Assembly: GCA_016182295.1 (NCBI GenBank)
Contig: JACOXP010000009.1
Span: forward strand, 1 to 38,084
Reading direction: 5' to 3'
Source: Candidatus Harrisonbacteria bacterium
GTDB lineage: Bacteria; Patescibacteriota; Minisyncoccia; UBA6257; WO2-44-18
DNA: 38,084 nt
The translations under genes and the position numbers were made by a program. This document shows positions 2,788-7,162 of the stretch, piece after piece (positions within the stretch are counted from its first letter, which is position 1; every line of letters begins with the position of its first letter). Under the pieces are notes generated by a model. It did no database searches. It was not told where the DNA came from and was given only the letters and a program-made list of their open reading frames with translations.

Positions 2788-5166
2788 TTATACTTTATGC
2801 CCGCCGAATACGGCGCGGAGCGATGAAAGAATTTTTCCGGTAAACGAAGGGTGCTTTTTTGAACGCACTCGAAAGAGATACGAATCTTTTATAACCGGCG
2901 CGGGAATGCCTAATTCTTTAGCGGTTTTCACCGTCCACTCCCCTTCGCCAGTATGCGCTACGATCCCCGATGCTTTTTTTAAATCTTCTCCGTATTCTCT
3001 AAAGCCCTCTTCGAGCCACCCCGTCAGGCGCGAGGTAATAATGCTGTTCTGATTGTACACATTGGCGACATCTTTCAGAGAAAATTTAAACGGAGAATTT
3101 TTGAGTATCGTAAATCCTTCGGCGAGCGACTGCATCATCCCATACTCAATGCCATTGTGAACCATTTTTGCAAAATGTCCGGCACCGGATTTTCCCAAAT
3201 ATCCAGAAGGTGTATCGGACATCGCGTCGAAAATCGGCCTGCTTTTATCATATATCTCTTTTTCACCACCGGCCATGATGGCAAATTTTCCGAGTTGAAT
3301 AGAAACCGGCCCGCCAGAAACACCGACATCAAGAAAATGAATACCTTTGACTTTTAACTTCTTTTCGCGTCGAATCGAATCTTTGTAGAAAGAATTTCCT
3401 CCGTCAACGACGACATCTCCTTTGTCTAAGATATGCGCAAGACCTCCTGCTCCAAAAATCACTTCATCCACGGGCTTACCGGCCGGAACCATAAGCCATA
3501 CGGTGCGTGGCGTATGAAGTTTGTCCACGAAATCTTTCAGAGAATATGTGCCGACAACGCCTTCTTTTTCAAGCTCTCTAGTGGCTTCGGGCGCTCTGTT
3601 GAGCCCAACAACCTGCCATTTTTTTGCGGCTAAACGTCGAGCAAGATTCCCGCCCATTTTCCCTAAGCCAATAATTCCAATTTTACCGGCGAGGGCACCG
3701 GTTTTTATGTCTTCGCTGTCCGGCCGTTTTTGCACAAAAGACGGACATGGTGTCGTATCCGGTTTGTATTCTGCCAGAGGAATAAGATGACGCTTCCATT
3801 CATCCACGATCGAATCCGTGAATTTCCATGCCGCTTCGATTTCGTTTTGGGAAACAAAAGATGTCTGTTCGCCCATTATTGTCGCGTACAGCACTTTCGC
3901 ATACTCCGCCACATATTGAATTTTCACCTCTTTTTCGTAAAGAAAGAATGAAAATACGCGTTCTTCCAAAATACGATCAAAGCCGGGTTTTTTTGTCCAG
4001 AAATGGATAATGATTTCATCATTCGGTTCGAGACGGAACACTATTTGGTTTGGCCGATGCGGCCCGACTTCGCACAAAAGGCATGCTTTGGGGTGCTTTA
4101 ATGTAACGACAATCTCTTTGCGCGCTTCGGCTAGGCGTTTTCCAGCCTCAATAACAATCGGCACGCCGTTCCAACGCGGGTCGTCAAGTTCGGTTTTCAG
4201 AGCAAAGTATGTTTCCGTAACTGAATGCTCGCGCACGCCGTCCACTTCAAGATAGCCCTTGTATTGGGCACGAAAAGTGTTTTTTTGAATTGAATCTTTG
4301 GTCCACGAAAGTAGGGCGGTTAAGACACGGGCGCGATTCTCGCGGATCGTTTCGGCATTGCTGAGAGCAGGATGTTCCATAAGCAAGGTTGCGAGCATGG
4401 CAAGCAGGTGATTTTGGCCGACATCGCGCAACGCGCCGACCGCATCATAAAAACCACCGCGCCCTTCGACTCCTATGGATTCAAGAAGTCGAATATCTAT
4501 GCGCTCAATGGTTGTGTTGTCCCAGGTGTTTTCAAAAAGATTATTAGAGAAACGAAAATTTTCTATTCCCTGAATAATCTCTTTAAATAAATAATGATCT
4601 ATGCGGTAAAGCTGTTCCTCCTTAAAGTATGCCAAGAGAAGGGACTGCAAGTTTTGCGCGCTCATTAAATCCGTACCGAAGGGTTTTTCAATAAGCAGGC
4701 GGCTCCAGCCAAGTTTACCGCCACACGGCAAATTCAGCTTCACTCCCGCCAAATTTTCAAAAATCGGTTTGTAGGTTGCTGGGGGCGCGGCAAGATAGAA
4801 AAGTTTGTTTGCGCAGACGCCCCATGATTTTTCTGACGCCTCAATGGACTTAGCCAGCACGCGGAAGGCCGCGGCATCTTCAAACTTGCCTGCATGATAC
4901 GAGAAGAGATCCGCAAAGCGGGAAAGTTTTTCATCACGTATTTCCGAATTGCTTTTATTGCGGACTGCGGATTCTATAGACGATTTGAATTTGTATTCAG
5001 ATATATCGCCGCGCGAGAATCCGATAACAGAAAAACGGTCTCCTAGGAGATTCTGATCAAAGAGTCGCCAGAGCGACGGAATAATCTTTCGCGTTGCCAA
5101 ATCGCCGTTGATGCCAAAAACGACAAGAATAGTCGGTGTATTATTTTTTTGCGGTTTATCTTTCAT
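2788..5166 (-). CDS. Fusion protein: glucose-6-phosphate dehydrogenase + 6-phosphogluconate dehydrogenase
   Basis: N-terminal FGINGDLATRK, LIEKPFGTD, RIDHYLFKE, IGVEGRGGFYDAVGALRDVGQNHLL (Zwf); C-terminal KIGIIGLGKMGGNLARRL, DGGNSFYKDSIRR, GVSGGPVSIQLGKFAIMAGG, SGAGHFAKMVHNGIEYGMMQ, TGEGEWTV (6PGDH); uninterrupted 792 aa ORF. Confidence 0.92.
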   Translation of the reverse strand: MKDKPQKNNTPTILVVFGINGDLATRKIIPSLWRLFDQNLLGDRFSVIGFSRGDISEYKFKSSIESAVRNKSNSEIRDEKLSRFADLFSYHAGKFEDAAAFRVLAKSIEASEKSWGVCANKLFYLAAPPATYKPIFENLAGVKLNLPCGGKLGWSRLLIEKPFGTDLMSAQNLQSLLLAYFKEEQLYRIDHYLFKEIIQGIENFRFSNNLFENTWDNTTIERIDIRLLESIGVEGRGGFYDAVGALRDVGQNHLLAMLATLLMEHPALSNAETIRENRARVLTALLSWTKDSIQKNTFRAQYKGYLEVDGVREHSVTETYFALKTELDDPRWNGVPIVIEAGKRLAEARKEIVVTLKHPKACLLCEVGPHRPNQIVFRLEPNDEIIIHFWTKKPGFDRILEERVFSFFLYEKEVKIQYVAEYAKVLYATIMGEQTSFVSQNEIEAAWKFTDSIVDEWKRHLIPLAEYKPDTTPCPSFVQKRPDSEDIKTGALAGKIGIIGLGKMGGNLARRLAAKKWQVVGLNRAPEATRELEKEGVVGTYSLKDFVDKLHTPRTVWLMVPAGKPVDEVIFGAGGLAHILDKGDVVVDGGNSFYKDSIRREKKLKVKGIHFLDVGVSGGPVSIQLGKFAIMAGGEKEIYDKSRPIFDAMSDTPSGYLGKSGAGHFAKMVHNGIEYGMMQSLAEGFTILKNSPFKFSLKDVANVYNQNSIITSRLTGWLEEGFREYGEDLKKASGIVAHTGEGEWTVKTAKELGIPAPVIKDSYLFRVRSKKHPSFTGKILSSLRAVFGGHKV

Positions 5167-5208: not shown

Positions 5209-6669
5209 TTATATACAACAACTTAATTTAGAAATATCTTTTGTAAACGATAGCGCGACAATTTTTATCGCTTCTGAAAGCGTTGGGAACATCGGGAGCG
5301 AATTGACCACATCGTCAATCGTGTTTTTGTTTTTTACCAACATCATCGCCTCGGCGATCAGCTCTCCGGCGTTTGGCGCGAGAATATGCACGCCGAGAAT
5401 TTGTTTCGTTTTCGGATGAATCGCCATTTTTATCATTCCCTCGGTGCGGTGCATGATAATCGCTTTTGGCACATCCTCAAACGAAACTGTGCGGCAGGCG
5501 CACACTCCCATTTGCTTCATCTGCTCGTCTTCAGTAAAGCCGACACCCGCAAGCTGAGGGTCGGTAAAAATAGTGTAGGGCACGGCATTATAATCTATGC
5601 TTTTGAGCGCCTGCCCTTCCGAAGCTCCGGAGGAGCGAAGGAGGGCGTTTTCAGCGGCGAGCGTTCCTTCCCGTCCGGCGGTTGGTTCAAGCCGCAAGGG
5701 TCCGCTCGTAACATCACCCACCGCGAAAATATTTTTGTTGGAAGTTTGGAAATGCTGATTTACAACGACCGCCTGCCCTTTGTTCACCTCAACGCCGACA
5801 ACATCAAGACCAAGCCCTTGCGTGTTGGGTGTTTTGCCTGCCGCTAAAAGTATTTCATCGGCGGACACTTCTTCCTGCCCCTCGCCGATCTGGTACGAAA
5901 CAATTTTTTTATCGCCCTCTTTGCGCGCGTTTTTTACCTCAACATTGGTCTTGATAATAATTCCTTCTTTTGAAAGTATCTCGGTGAGCCGATCAGTAAG
6001 AGCTTTTTCAGAGTGCGGAAAAATTGAATCGCCGCGCTGTAAAATAGTTACTTTCGTGCCAAAACGGCTGAACATTTGGGCAAACTCCAAGCCGACAGGG
6101 CCTGCACCGATGACGACTAATTCTTTCGGTTGTTTTTCAAGGCGCAACGCTTCGATATGTGTAACAAATCCAATTTCGTGGATACCCTCAATCGGCGGCA
6201 CATTGGCGGTGGAGCCCGCGGCGATAATAAATTTTTCCGCACTCAATTTTTCCCTAGCTTGCCCTGAACTTGTCGAACCAGTCGAAGAGGTCACCTCTAC
6301 CTCATTTTGAGAAACAAATTTTGCCTTTCCCTCGATTGCTGTTACATGTTCTAAATTTTTCAAGACCTTTTCATATTTCTCTTGACGTAGTTTTCCCACA
6401 AGCGAAAGTTCGTCTTTCACAACTTTTTGAAAATCAAAATTTTTCACTTCAAGCTCTACGCCGGCAACGCCGTGATGTTTGGCGTGGTGTAAAATTTCTC
6501 CGGCGTAAAGAAGTGTCTTTGACGGCACACAACCAACATTGACACAAGTGCCGCCGAGCGGAAGTCCCGAATTCACGAGCGCAGTCTTTGCGCCGAGCTC
6601 ATTGGCGCGGATTGCCGCCGCAAACGCGCCCGCTCCACCGCCGATAATGATAAGGTCAAATTTTTGCAT
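5209..6669 (-). CDS. merA: Mercuric reductase MerA-type protein (no N-terminal NmerA domain)
   Basis: GGTCVNVGCVPSK redox centre, LRQEKYEKVL, MFPTLSEAIK, C-terminal LSCCI (vicinal Cys pair as in MerA). Confidence 0.82.
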   Translation of the reverse strand: MQKFDLIIIGGGAGAFAAAIRANELGAKTALVNSGLPLGGTCVNVGCVPSKTLLYAGEILHHAKHHGVAGVELEVKNFDFQKVVKDELSLVGKLRQEKYEKVLKNLEHVTAIEGKAKFVSQNEVEVTSSTGSTSSGQAREKLSAEKFIIAAGSTANVPPIEGIHEIGFVTHIEALRLEKQPKELVVIGAGPVGLEFAQMFSRFGTKVTILQRGDSIFPHSEKALTDRLTEILSKEGIIIKTNVEVKNARKEGDKKIVSYQIGEGQEEVSADEILLAAGKTPNTQGLGLDVVGVEVNKGQAVVVNQHFQTSNKNIFAVGDVTSGPLRLEPTAGREGTLAAENALLRSSGASEGQALKSIDYNAVPYTIFTDPQLAGVGFTEDEQMKQMGVCACRTVSFEDVPKAIIMHRTEGMIKMAIHPKTKQILGVHILAPNAGELIAEAMMLVKNKNTIDDVVNSLPMFPTLSEAIKIVALSFTKDISKLSCCI

Positions 6670-6985
6670 AGTGATTGATTCTATCTTTCATCACCTCAAC
6701 AACAGGTGATTTTTTAAGTTTGTAATACACTGTGCGGAACTCGCGGCGGCTTTCAACCATATCCGCTTTTTGTAGCTTGCGGAGGGTGTGTGAGACGGCA
6801 GAAATGGAAACCCCAATGATTTCGGCAATTTCACCTACTGAAATCTCTTTATGGCGGCATAGAAGATAACAGATTTTAAGGCGTGTTGGGTCGCCGACCA
6901 TGTTAAATTCTCGCGCGCAAGCGATAATCGCATCTTTATTCCCAAGCTCTTTTTTAAGGTCGCTCTTTTTCATACTTGAATACAT
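6656..6985 (-). CDS. ArsR/SmtB-family transcriptional repressor
   Basis: winged HTH: FNMVGDPTRLKICYLLCRHKEISVGEIAEIIGVSISAVSHTLRKLQKADMVESRREFRTVYYKL; start placed at ATG 6985 because the predicted promoter lies just upstream; 14-bp overlap with merA. Confidence 0.85.
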   Translation of the reverse strand: MYSSMKKSDLKKELGNKDAIIACAREFNMVGDPTRLKICYLLCRHKEISVGEIAEIIGVSISAVSHTLRKLQKADMVESRREFRTVYYKLKKSPVVEVMKDRINHYAKI

Positions 6986-6991
6986 ATTCAA
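6976..6991. promoter_or_regulatory. Candidate ArsR-family operator TTGAATA-CA-TATTCAA
   Basis: Perfect 7-2-7 inverted repeat immediately downstream of the -10. Confidence 0.7.
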
Positions 6992-7020
6992 ATGATAGCG
7001 GACAAAAAGAAAAAAGGCAA
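6992..7020 (-). promoter_or_regulatory. Sigma70-like promoter TTGCCT-N17-TATCAT for the arsR-merA operon
   Basis: Minus strand -35 at 7020-7015, -10 at 6997-6992, 17-nt spacer. Confidence 0.6.
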
Positions 7021-7080
7021 CGAGTAATTTATTCATAAGGAGTTCCTTAAACTTTTCCGCGCAGGAAAGTTTTGTCTTGG

Positions 7081-7162
7081 TGCCCGGGGGGAGAGTCGAA
7101 CTCCCATGCCTTTCGGCGCACGATTTTGAGTCGTGTACGTCTGCCAATTCCGTCACCCGGGC
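7081..7162 (-). tRNA. tRNA-Leu (anticodon CAA)
   Basis: Reverse complement GCCCGGGTGACGGAATTGGCAGACG...CACGACTCAAAATCGTG...GGGAGTTCGACTCTCCCCCCGGGCA; long variable arm. Confidence 0.93.

Follow-up and report, generated by a model that had tools for sequence, protein, structure and literature searches.

A glucose-6-phosphate dehydrogenase–6-phosphogluconate dehydrogenase fusion in a gene row with a MerA-type reductase in Candidatus Harrisonbacteria

In animal H6PD and in Plasmodium, Giardia and Trichomonas, glucose-6-phosphate dehydrogenase (G6PD) is fused to 6-phosphogluconolactonase (6PGL). Small, symbiont-like and gene-poor bacteria often have no obvious sources of NADPH. According to a 2024 engineering paper, natural fusions of the oxidative pentose phosphate pathway join only its first and second enzymes (PMC10909971). 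A fusion survey from the same year records a G6pd–Pgd fusion in 60 assemblies of bacterial candidate phyla and in a single archaeon, of the Diapherotrites, and gives it two sentences with no context, phylogeny or mechanism (PMC11237513), and Stover et al. described a G6PD–6PGD fusion in the diatom Phaeodactylum tricornutum in 2011 (PMC3148214). In the open literature that we searched, we found no characterisation of a Zwf–Gnd fusion and no description that links one to a MerA gene row.

In this work, we analyse such a fusion in a stretch of 38,084 nucleotides (the window; contig JACOXP010000009.1) from a Candidatus Harrisonbacteria bacterium, whose genome assembly comprises 632 kb in 19 contigs and is 91% complete. 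A preliminary description of this DNA knew of no common Zwf–Gnd fusion and held that an architecture already catalogued as common would count against its proposal; the survey and the diatom report, the latter with a doubtful annotation, now supply that objection in part. What is new here is the setting of the fusion, in a tight row with genes for an ArsR-family regulator, a MerA-type reductase and a glutathione-reductase-like flavoenzyme.

The fused reading frame

The fusion is encoded by one uninterrupted frame of 792 codons (Table 1), for which the preliminary description gave the exact length and coordinates but no strand; it is the minus strand, as the plus strand across 2788–5166 is rich in stop codons. 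All the motifs named there were recovered, those of Zwf (GDLATRK, RIDHYLFKE and GVEGRGGFYD) preceding those of 6-phosphogluconate dehydrogenase (6PGDH; GLGKMG, DGGNSFYKDS, GVSGG, KMVHNGIEYG and TGEGEWTV). The four Pfam domains named in its proposed check, PF00479, PF02781, PF03446 and PF00393, all lie in the one protein and score above their cut-offs. With this frame recurring in 41 genomes, far more than chance would give, its reading of a genuine single-polypeptide fusion holds.

In curated profile searches, residues 11–469 match TIGR00871 (zwf) with 450.3 bits against a cut-off of 400.6, whereas residues 495–792 match both PRK09599 (340.6 bits, cut-off 271) and TIGR00872 (336.2 bits, cut-off 297.2). 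The first half is identified as a glucose-6-phosphate dehydrogenase (G6PDH) by its substrate and catalytic motifs (RIDHYLxKE, EKPFG and QNH) and by its fold, the modelled domain reaching a target TM-score of 0.88–0.89 to Leuconostoc G6PDH in Foldseek. The second is a 6PGDH of the short type (about 300 residues), complete for that type, as its profile scores and the catalytic segment KMVHNGIEYG indicate. The closest named relative of the fusion protein is that of a Patescibacteria MAG, L020 (69%).

Table 1. Coordinates of the fusion, its parts and the neighbouring genes in the window
Feature	Position	Strand	Details
zwf::gnd fusion ORF, 792 aa	2788..5166	minus	ATG at 5166, stop codon 2790-2788
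G6PDH domain, residues 11-470	3757..5136	minus	TIGR00871, PF00479, PF02781
Interdomain linker, residues 471-493 (23 residues)	3688..3756	minus	predicted disordered
Short-type 6PGDH domain, residues 494-792	2791..3687	minus	PRK09599, TIGR00872, PF03446, PF00393
MerA-type mercuric reductase, 486 aa	5209..6669	minus	TIGR02053; 42 bp upstream of fusion
ArsR/SmtB-family regulator	6656..7156 (as listed)	minus	PF01022, NF033788 above cut-off
Glutathione-reductase/MerA-like FAD disulfide reductase, 454 aa	1419..2783	minus	Pyr_redox_2, Pyr_redox_dim
tRNA-Leu	7078-7162	minus	

The gene row and the proposed role of the fusion

On the minus strand, the order of genes is tRNA-Leu, the ArsR-family regulator, the MerA-type reductase, zwf::gnd and the glutathione-reductase-like flavoenzyme. 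The arsR and merA genes overlap by 14 bp, merA and the fusion are 42 bp apart, and only 4 bp separate the stop codon of the fusion from the reductase gene. The MerA-type protein exceeds the TIGR02053 cut-off (517.8 against 454.45 bits) and has both the CVNVGC redox pair and the C-terminal CC pair (SCCI) that identify it. Enzymes of this type detoxify mercury at the expense of NADPH. The downstream reductase carries a CALRGC motif and finds its best NCBIfam match in PRK06116, whose cut-off of 480 bits it does not reach (308.5 bits), so we name it only glutathione-reductase-like. As the listed GTG start of the regulator lies inside the tRNA-Leu gene, its true start is likely the ATG at 6985.

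Several features of the surroundings were recorded alongside. The MerA and disulfide-reductase genes adjoining the fusion had been overlooked in the preliminary description. The arsR–merA–zwf::gnd row starts directly downstream of tRNA-Leu, and tRNA genes are common sites for acquired DNA; the GC content of the row (44–48%, compared to 42–48% in the rest of the profiled stretch) is uninformative about a foreign origin, and a promoter scan found sites no more numerous than in shuffles. Downstream of the row, a 177-residue ORF (771–1304, minus) with no Pfam match shares about 65% identity across 90 residues with ORFs that in two other loci (L107 and L108) lie directly upstream of the fusion. The host genome also encodes a second MerA-type reductase (C16:31607–32998, that is L171:7608–8999, minus), which is 72% identical to that of the window, shares its C-terminal CC pair and is followed by genes for small membrane proteins, one of which, with a CPLCW motif and a likeness to mercury transporters, is a candidate transporter of this kind.

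We consider it likely that the fusion is a two-step generator of NADPH that here feeds the neighbouring flavin disulfide and metal reductases. Its N-terminal half would convert glucose-6-phosphate to 6-phosphogluconolactone, hydrolysis of the lactone would be spontaneous or the work of an unrecognised enzyme, and the C-terminal half would oxidise and decarboxylate 6-phosphogluconate to ribulose-5-phosphate, with probably one NADPH per step and two per glucose-6-phosphate. Genes for the use of ribulose-5-phosphate (rpiB, rpe and transketolase) are found on contig C4 of the host genome. Fusion would guarantee 1:1 expression of the two enzymes, with a flexible tether to hold them near each other. 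The merA, fusion and glutathione-reductase-like genes probably share one transcript under the ArsR-family regulator, and the fusion would thus supply NADPH to both reductases during metal or thiol stress.

Related neighbourhoods recur in other genomes. In L020, a MerA gene lies upstream of the fusion, its product 85% identical to that of the window, and in L083 a gnd truncated at the contig end is closely followed by ArsR and MerA genes. In L020 and L021, genes for a VTT-domain protein and a further flavin reductase closely follow the fusion, and CcdA/DsbD-type and thioredoxin-like genes lie upstream of it. TrxB-type reductases are encoded at most 5.5 kb from the fusion in four further genomes (G116, G078, G333 and G125). 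Of 22 fusion-bearing genomes, five encode an FAD disulfide reductase no more than 5.5 kb from the fusion, where 0.79 were expected (P about 0.001); this distance was picked post hoc, and the excess is weaker at 2 kb (P 0.05) and 10 kb (P 0.008).

Two other kinds of neighbour were observed. Similar proteins of 311–315 residues with LGALELF and LVxGSGNA motifs are encoded near the fusion at L020:6391–7323 and L183:1383–2327; no Pfam family matches the former, which might resemble sugar-phosphate isomerases. A dual-specificity-phosphatase-like protein of about 150 residues is encoded downstream of the fusion in L102/L154, L020 and L155, directly so in two of these.

The fusion may instead serve ordinary central metabolism, providing NADPH and pentoses for biosynthesis, with its adjacency to merA an accident of a horizontally acquired row, a reading that we regard as possible but doubtful. 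It would account for the limited reach of the MerA link, since among 20 genomes searched (18 of them with the fusion) only that of the window has a MerA above the cut-off, and it fits the neighbours seen elsewhere, which include genes for phosphoglucose isomerase, a ROK kinase, transketolase or glutamate dehydrogenase. Acquisition is likewise consistent with the fusion being found in none of the seven genomes of the same family that were searched. Against an accident stand the very short gaps on either side of the fusion in the window, the further occurrence of MerA next to it in L020 and close to the truncated gnd of L083, and the TrxB-type reductases that recur near it in four other genomes.

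Cofactor, tether and the missing lactonase

Across 25 aligned fusions, R52, K161, D190, H191 and H253 are invariant in the G6PDH half, as are K667, N671, E674, R766 and H790 in the 6PGDH half. By the roles known for the two families, these include the catalytic residues, and R52 is the NADP-type arginine of G6PDH. Positions 523–524 read NR in the window protein, which, judging from known structures, is presumably the NADP-type pair of 6PGDHs. Among the 25 fusions, N is present in 15 and R in 17, and the eight with D at position 523 may, from their sequences, use NAD.

Conceivably, the Gnd half works with NAD or has a different hydroxy acid as its substrate, in which case the fusion would not be a double source of NADPH. 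TIGR00872, an NAD-dependent equivalog of the short 6PGDH type, also scores above its cut-off, and the eight fusions with D point the same way. For the window protein we nonetheless find this unlikely: it has the NR pair, its score with PRK09599 (the NADP subfamily) is slightly higher, and all 6PGDH catalytic residues are present.

The preferred reading, of an NADPH generator, has the two enzymes on a flexible tether, and the AlphaFold model (mean pLDDT 85, pTM 0.60) contains two confident domains and a disordered linker, with pLDDT below 50 at residues 478–492 and about 28 for the linker. Mean pairwise identity among the 25 fusions is 51% for Zwf and 56% for Gnd but 9% for the linker, which varies from 17 to 36 residues over 42 loci. 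Residues that are invariant on both sides of a drifting linker indicate that both enzymes are under selection and that the join is a loose tether, and the model likewise suggests two loosely tethered domains. An internal start that could yield free Gnd was considered and rejected: the linker of the window protein is encoded with no ATG and one GTG, and in 12 of the 42 fusions neither codon occurs within the linker.

As the preliminary description observed, the fusion includes no lactonase domain; beyond this, searches of the host genome, which is 91% complete, detected no homologue of either lactonase family (PF01182 or PF10282). In our first search, PF01182 was absent from 17 of 18 genomes with the fusion and from both unfused genomes (G026 and G011), and PF10282 gave only short, weak matches in three genomes of the set. 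In a second set, PF01182 was absent from six of eight fused genomes, being present in L022 and weakly so in L025. In G096, the fusion lies beside a 6PGL gene.

These absences would fit a fusion that channels the lactone or 6-phosphogluconate between its active sites and so needs no separate lactonase; the preliminary description had taken the two oxidative steps in one protein to suggest channelling. We found no support for this and hold it to be improbable. In the model the linker is disordered, and its sequence is not conserved, as the low pLDDT, pTM and identity given above indicate; the unfused Patescibacteria G026 and G011 have no detectable lactonase either. Moreover, spontaneous hydrolysis of the lactone is reported to permit considerable flux (review, PMC4728180), so that channelling does not follow from the absence of a lactonase alone. 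Very improbable, in our view, is a combined scheme in which, with no separate lactonase, the lactone is hydrolysed by the tethered domains or passed on between them, and the fusion was also recruited in this lineage as the dedicated NADPH source of the mercury/thiol reductase row of a bacterium with a reduced genome.

Distribution, history and relation to known systems

We found the fusion as one uninterrupted frame in 41 distinct genomes, and a further locus with a broken frame (L115) brings the total to 42. A search of relatives yielded seven more uninterrupted fusions with the same domain order, others emerged when 286 genomes of the class were sampled and named genomes were scanned, and a phylum sample added 12 after reading of the DNA, including that of G544, a genome in a single 964-kb contig. 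Counted from the tables and the frames read, about 17 of 286 genomes sampled from the class and 13 of 380 from the phylum carry the fusion, and the trait is thus uncommon but widespread. We dismiss an assembly or sequencing error that merged two separate genes as next to impossible: the host genome is a draft and the unfused state can differ little (G026 has a single stop codon, in frame, between zwf and gnd), but the same open frame recurs in 41 distinct genomes, including the single-contig G544, with conserved domains and an open linker.

Some candidates proved not to be fusions. An apparent triple Zwf–lactonase–Gnd fusion in a very long frame (G562 and G712) resolved at the DNA level into separate genes with another between them, and three loci listed with one internal stop (G379, G455 and G495) are separate adjacent genes.

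We built a tree of 78 rows from both domains (quick search, no bootstrap); a single clade of 51 rows, with SH-aLRT 97, unites all 41 fusions with 10 separate pairs. Its members are Patescibacteria and three MAGs labelled Actinomycetota; in the outgroups and in Patescibacteria outside it, zwf and gnd are separate genes that often stand side by side in the order of the fusion, zwf before gnd. On the simplest reading of these sequences, the fusion would have arisen in Patescibacteria by the joining of an adjacent zwf–gnd pair with its order kept, once or a few times, followed by several later splits, of which G026 would be an example, and by sideways transfer; the count of events is rough, given the quick tree search with no bootstrap. 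The three Actinomycetota-labelled MAGs (L024, L025 and L026, one of them labelled as Slackia) carry the patescibacterial type of fusion, and in two of them the contigs with the fusion are 111 and 293 kb long, which points to transfer from one phylum to another and not to mis-binning. A phage or plasmid origin was considered and rejected, since in either collection the best annotated matches, with 33–39% identity, are zwf and gnd as separate genes.

A conserved double dehydrogenase that is repeatedly encoded near flavin disulfide reductases, and here beside MerA, would offer a compact way to draw reducing power for metal or thiol defence from glucose-6-phosphate. It also provides a naturally occurring case in which to ask whether the pentose phosphate pathway works with no lactonase, and a natural template for fusion enzymes that regenerate NADPH.

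Among known systems, the separate zwf–gnd pairs of bacteria, plasmids and cyanophages have the same two families (with gnd of the short type), often adjacent and in the same order, but encode separate polypeptides that are 33–39% identical to the window protein among the matches listed. The G6PD::6PGL fusions likewise join consecutive enzymes of the oxidative pentose phosphate pathway, but include the lactonase rather than 6PGDH, whereas the window fusion contains no lactonase. Phaeodactylum tricornutum also has Zwf and 6PGDH in one frame, with 39 nucleotides between them, but this eukaryote also has further, unfused copies as well as a gene for 6PGL, and a later release disputes the annotation (PMC3148214); its fusion is presumably an independent event. 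The candidate-phyla fusion of the 2024 survey (PMC11237513, cluster 1367) is the closest, with the same two enzymes in one polypeptide and the same kind of host. With one uninterrupted frame in a candidate-phylum genome, the window fusion very probably belongs to that family, as judged by shared architecture and host, and to its description we add the row with ArsR, MerA and disulfide-reductase genes and a history of fusion and fission.
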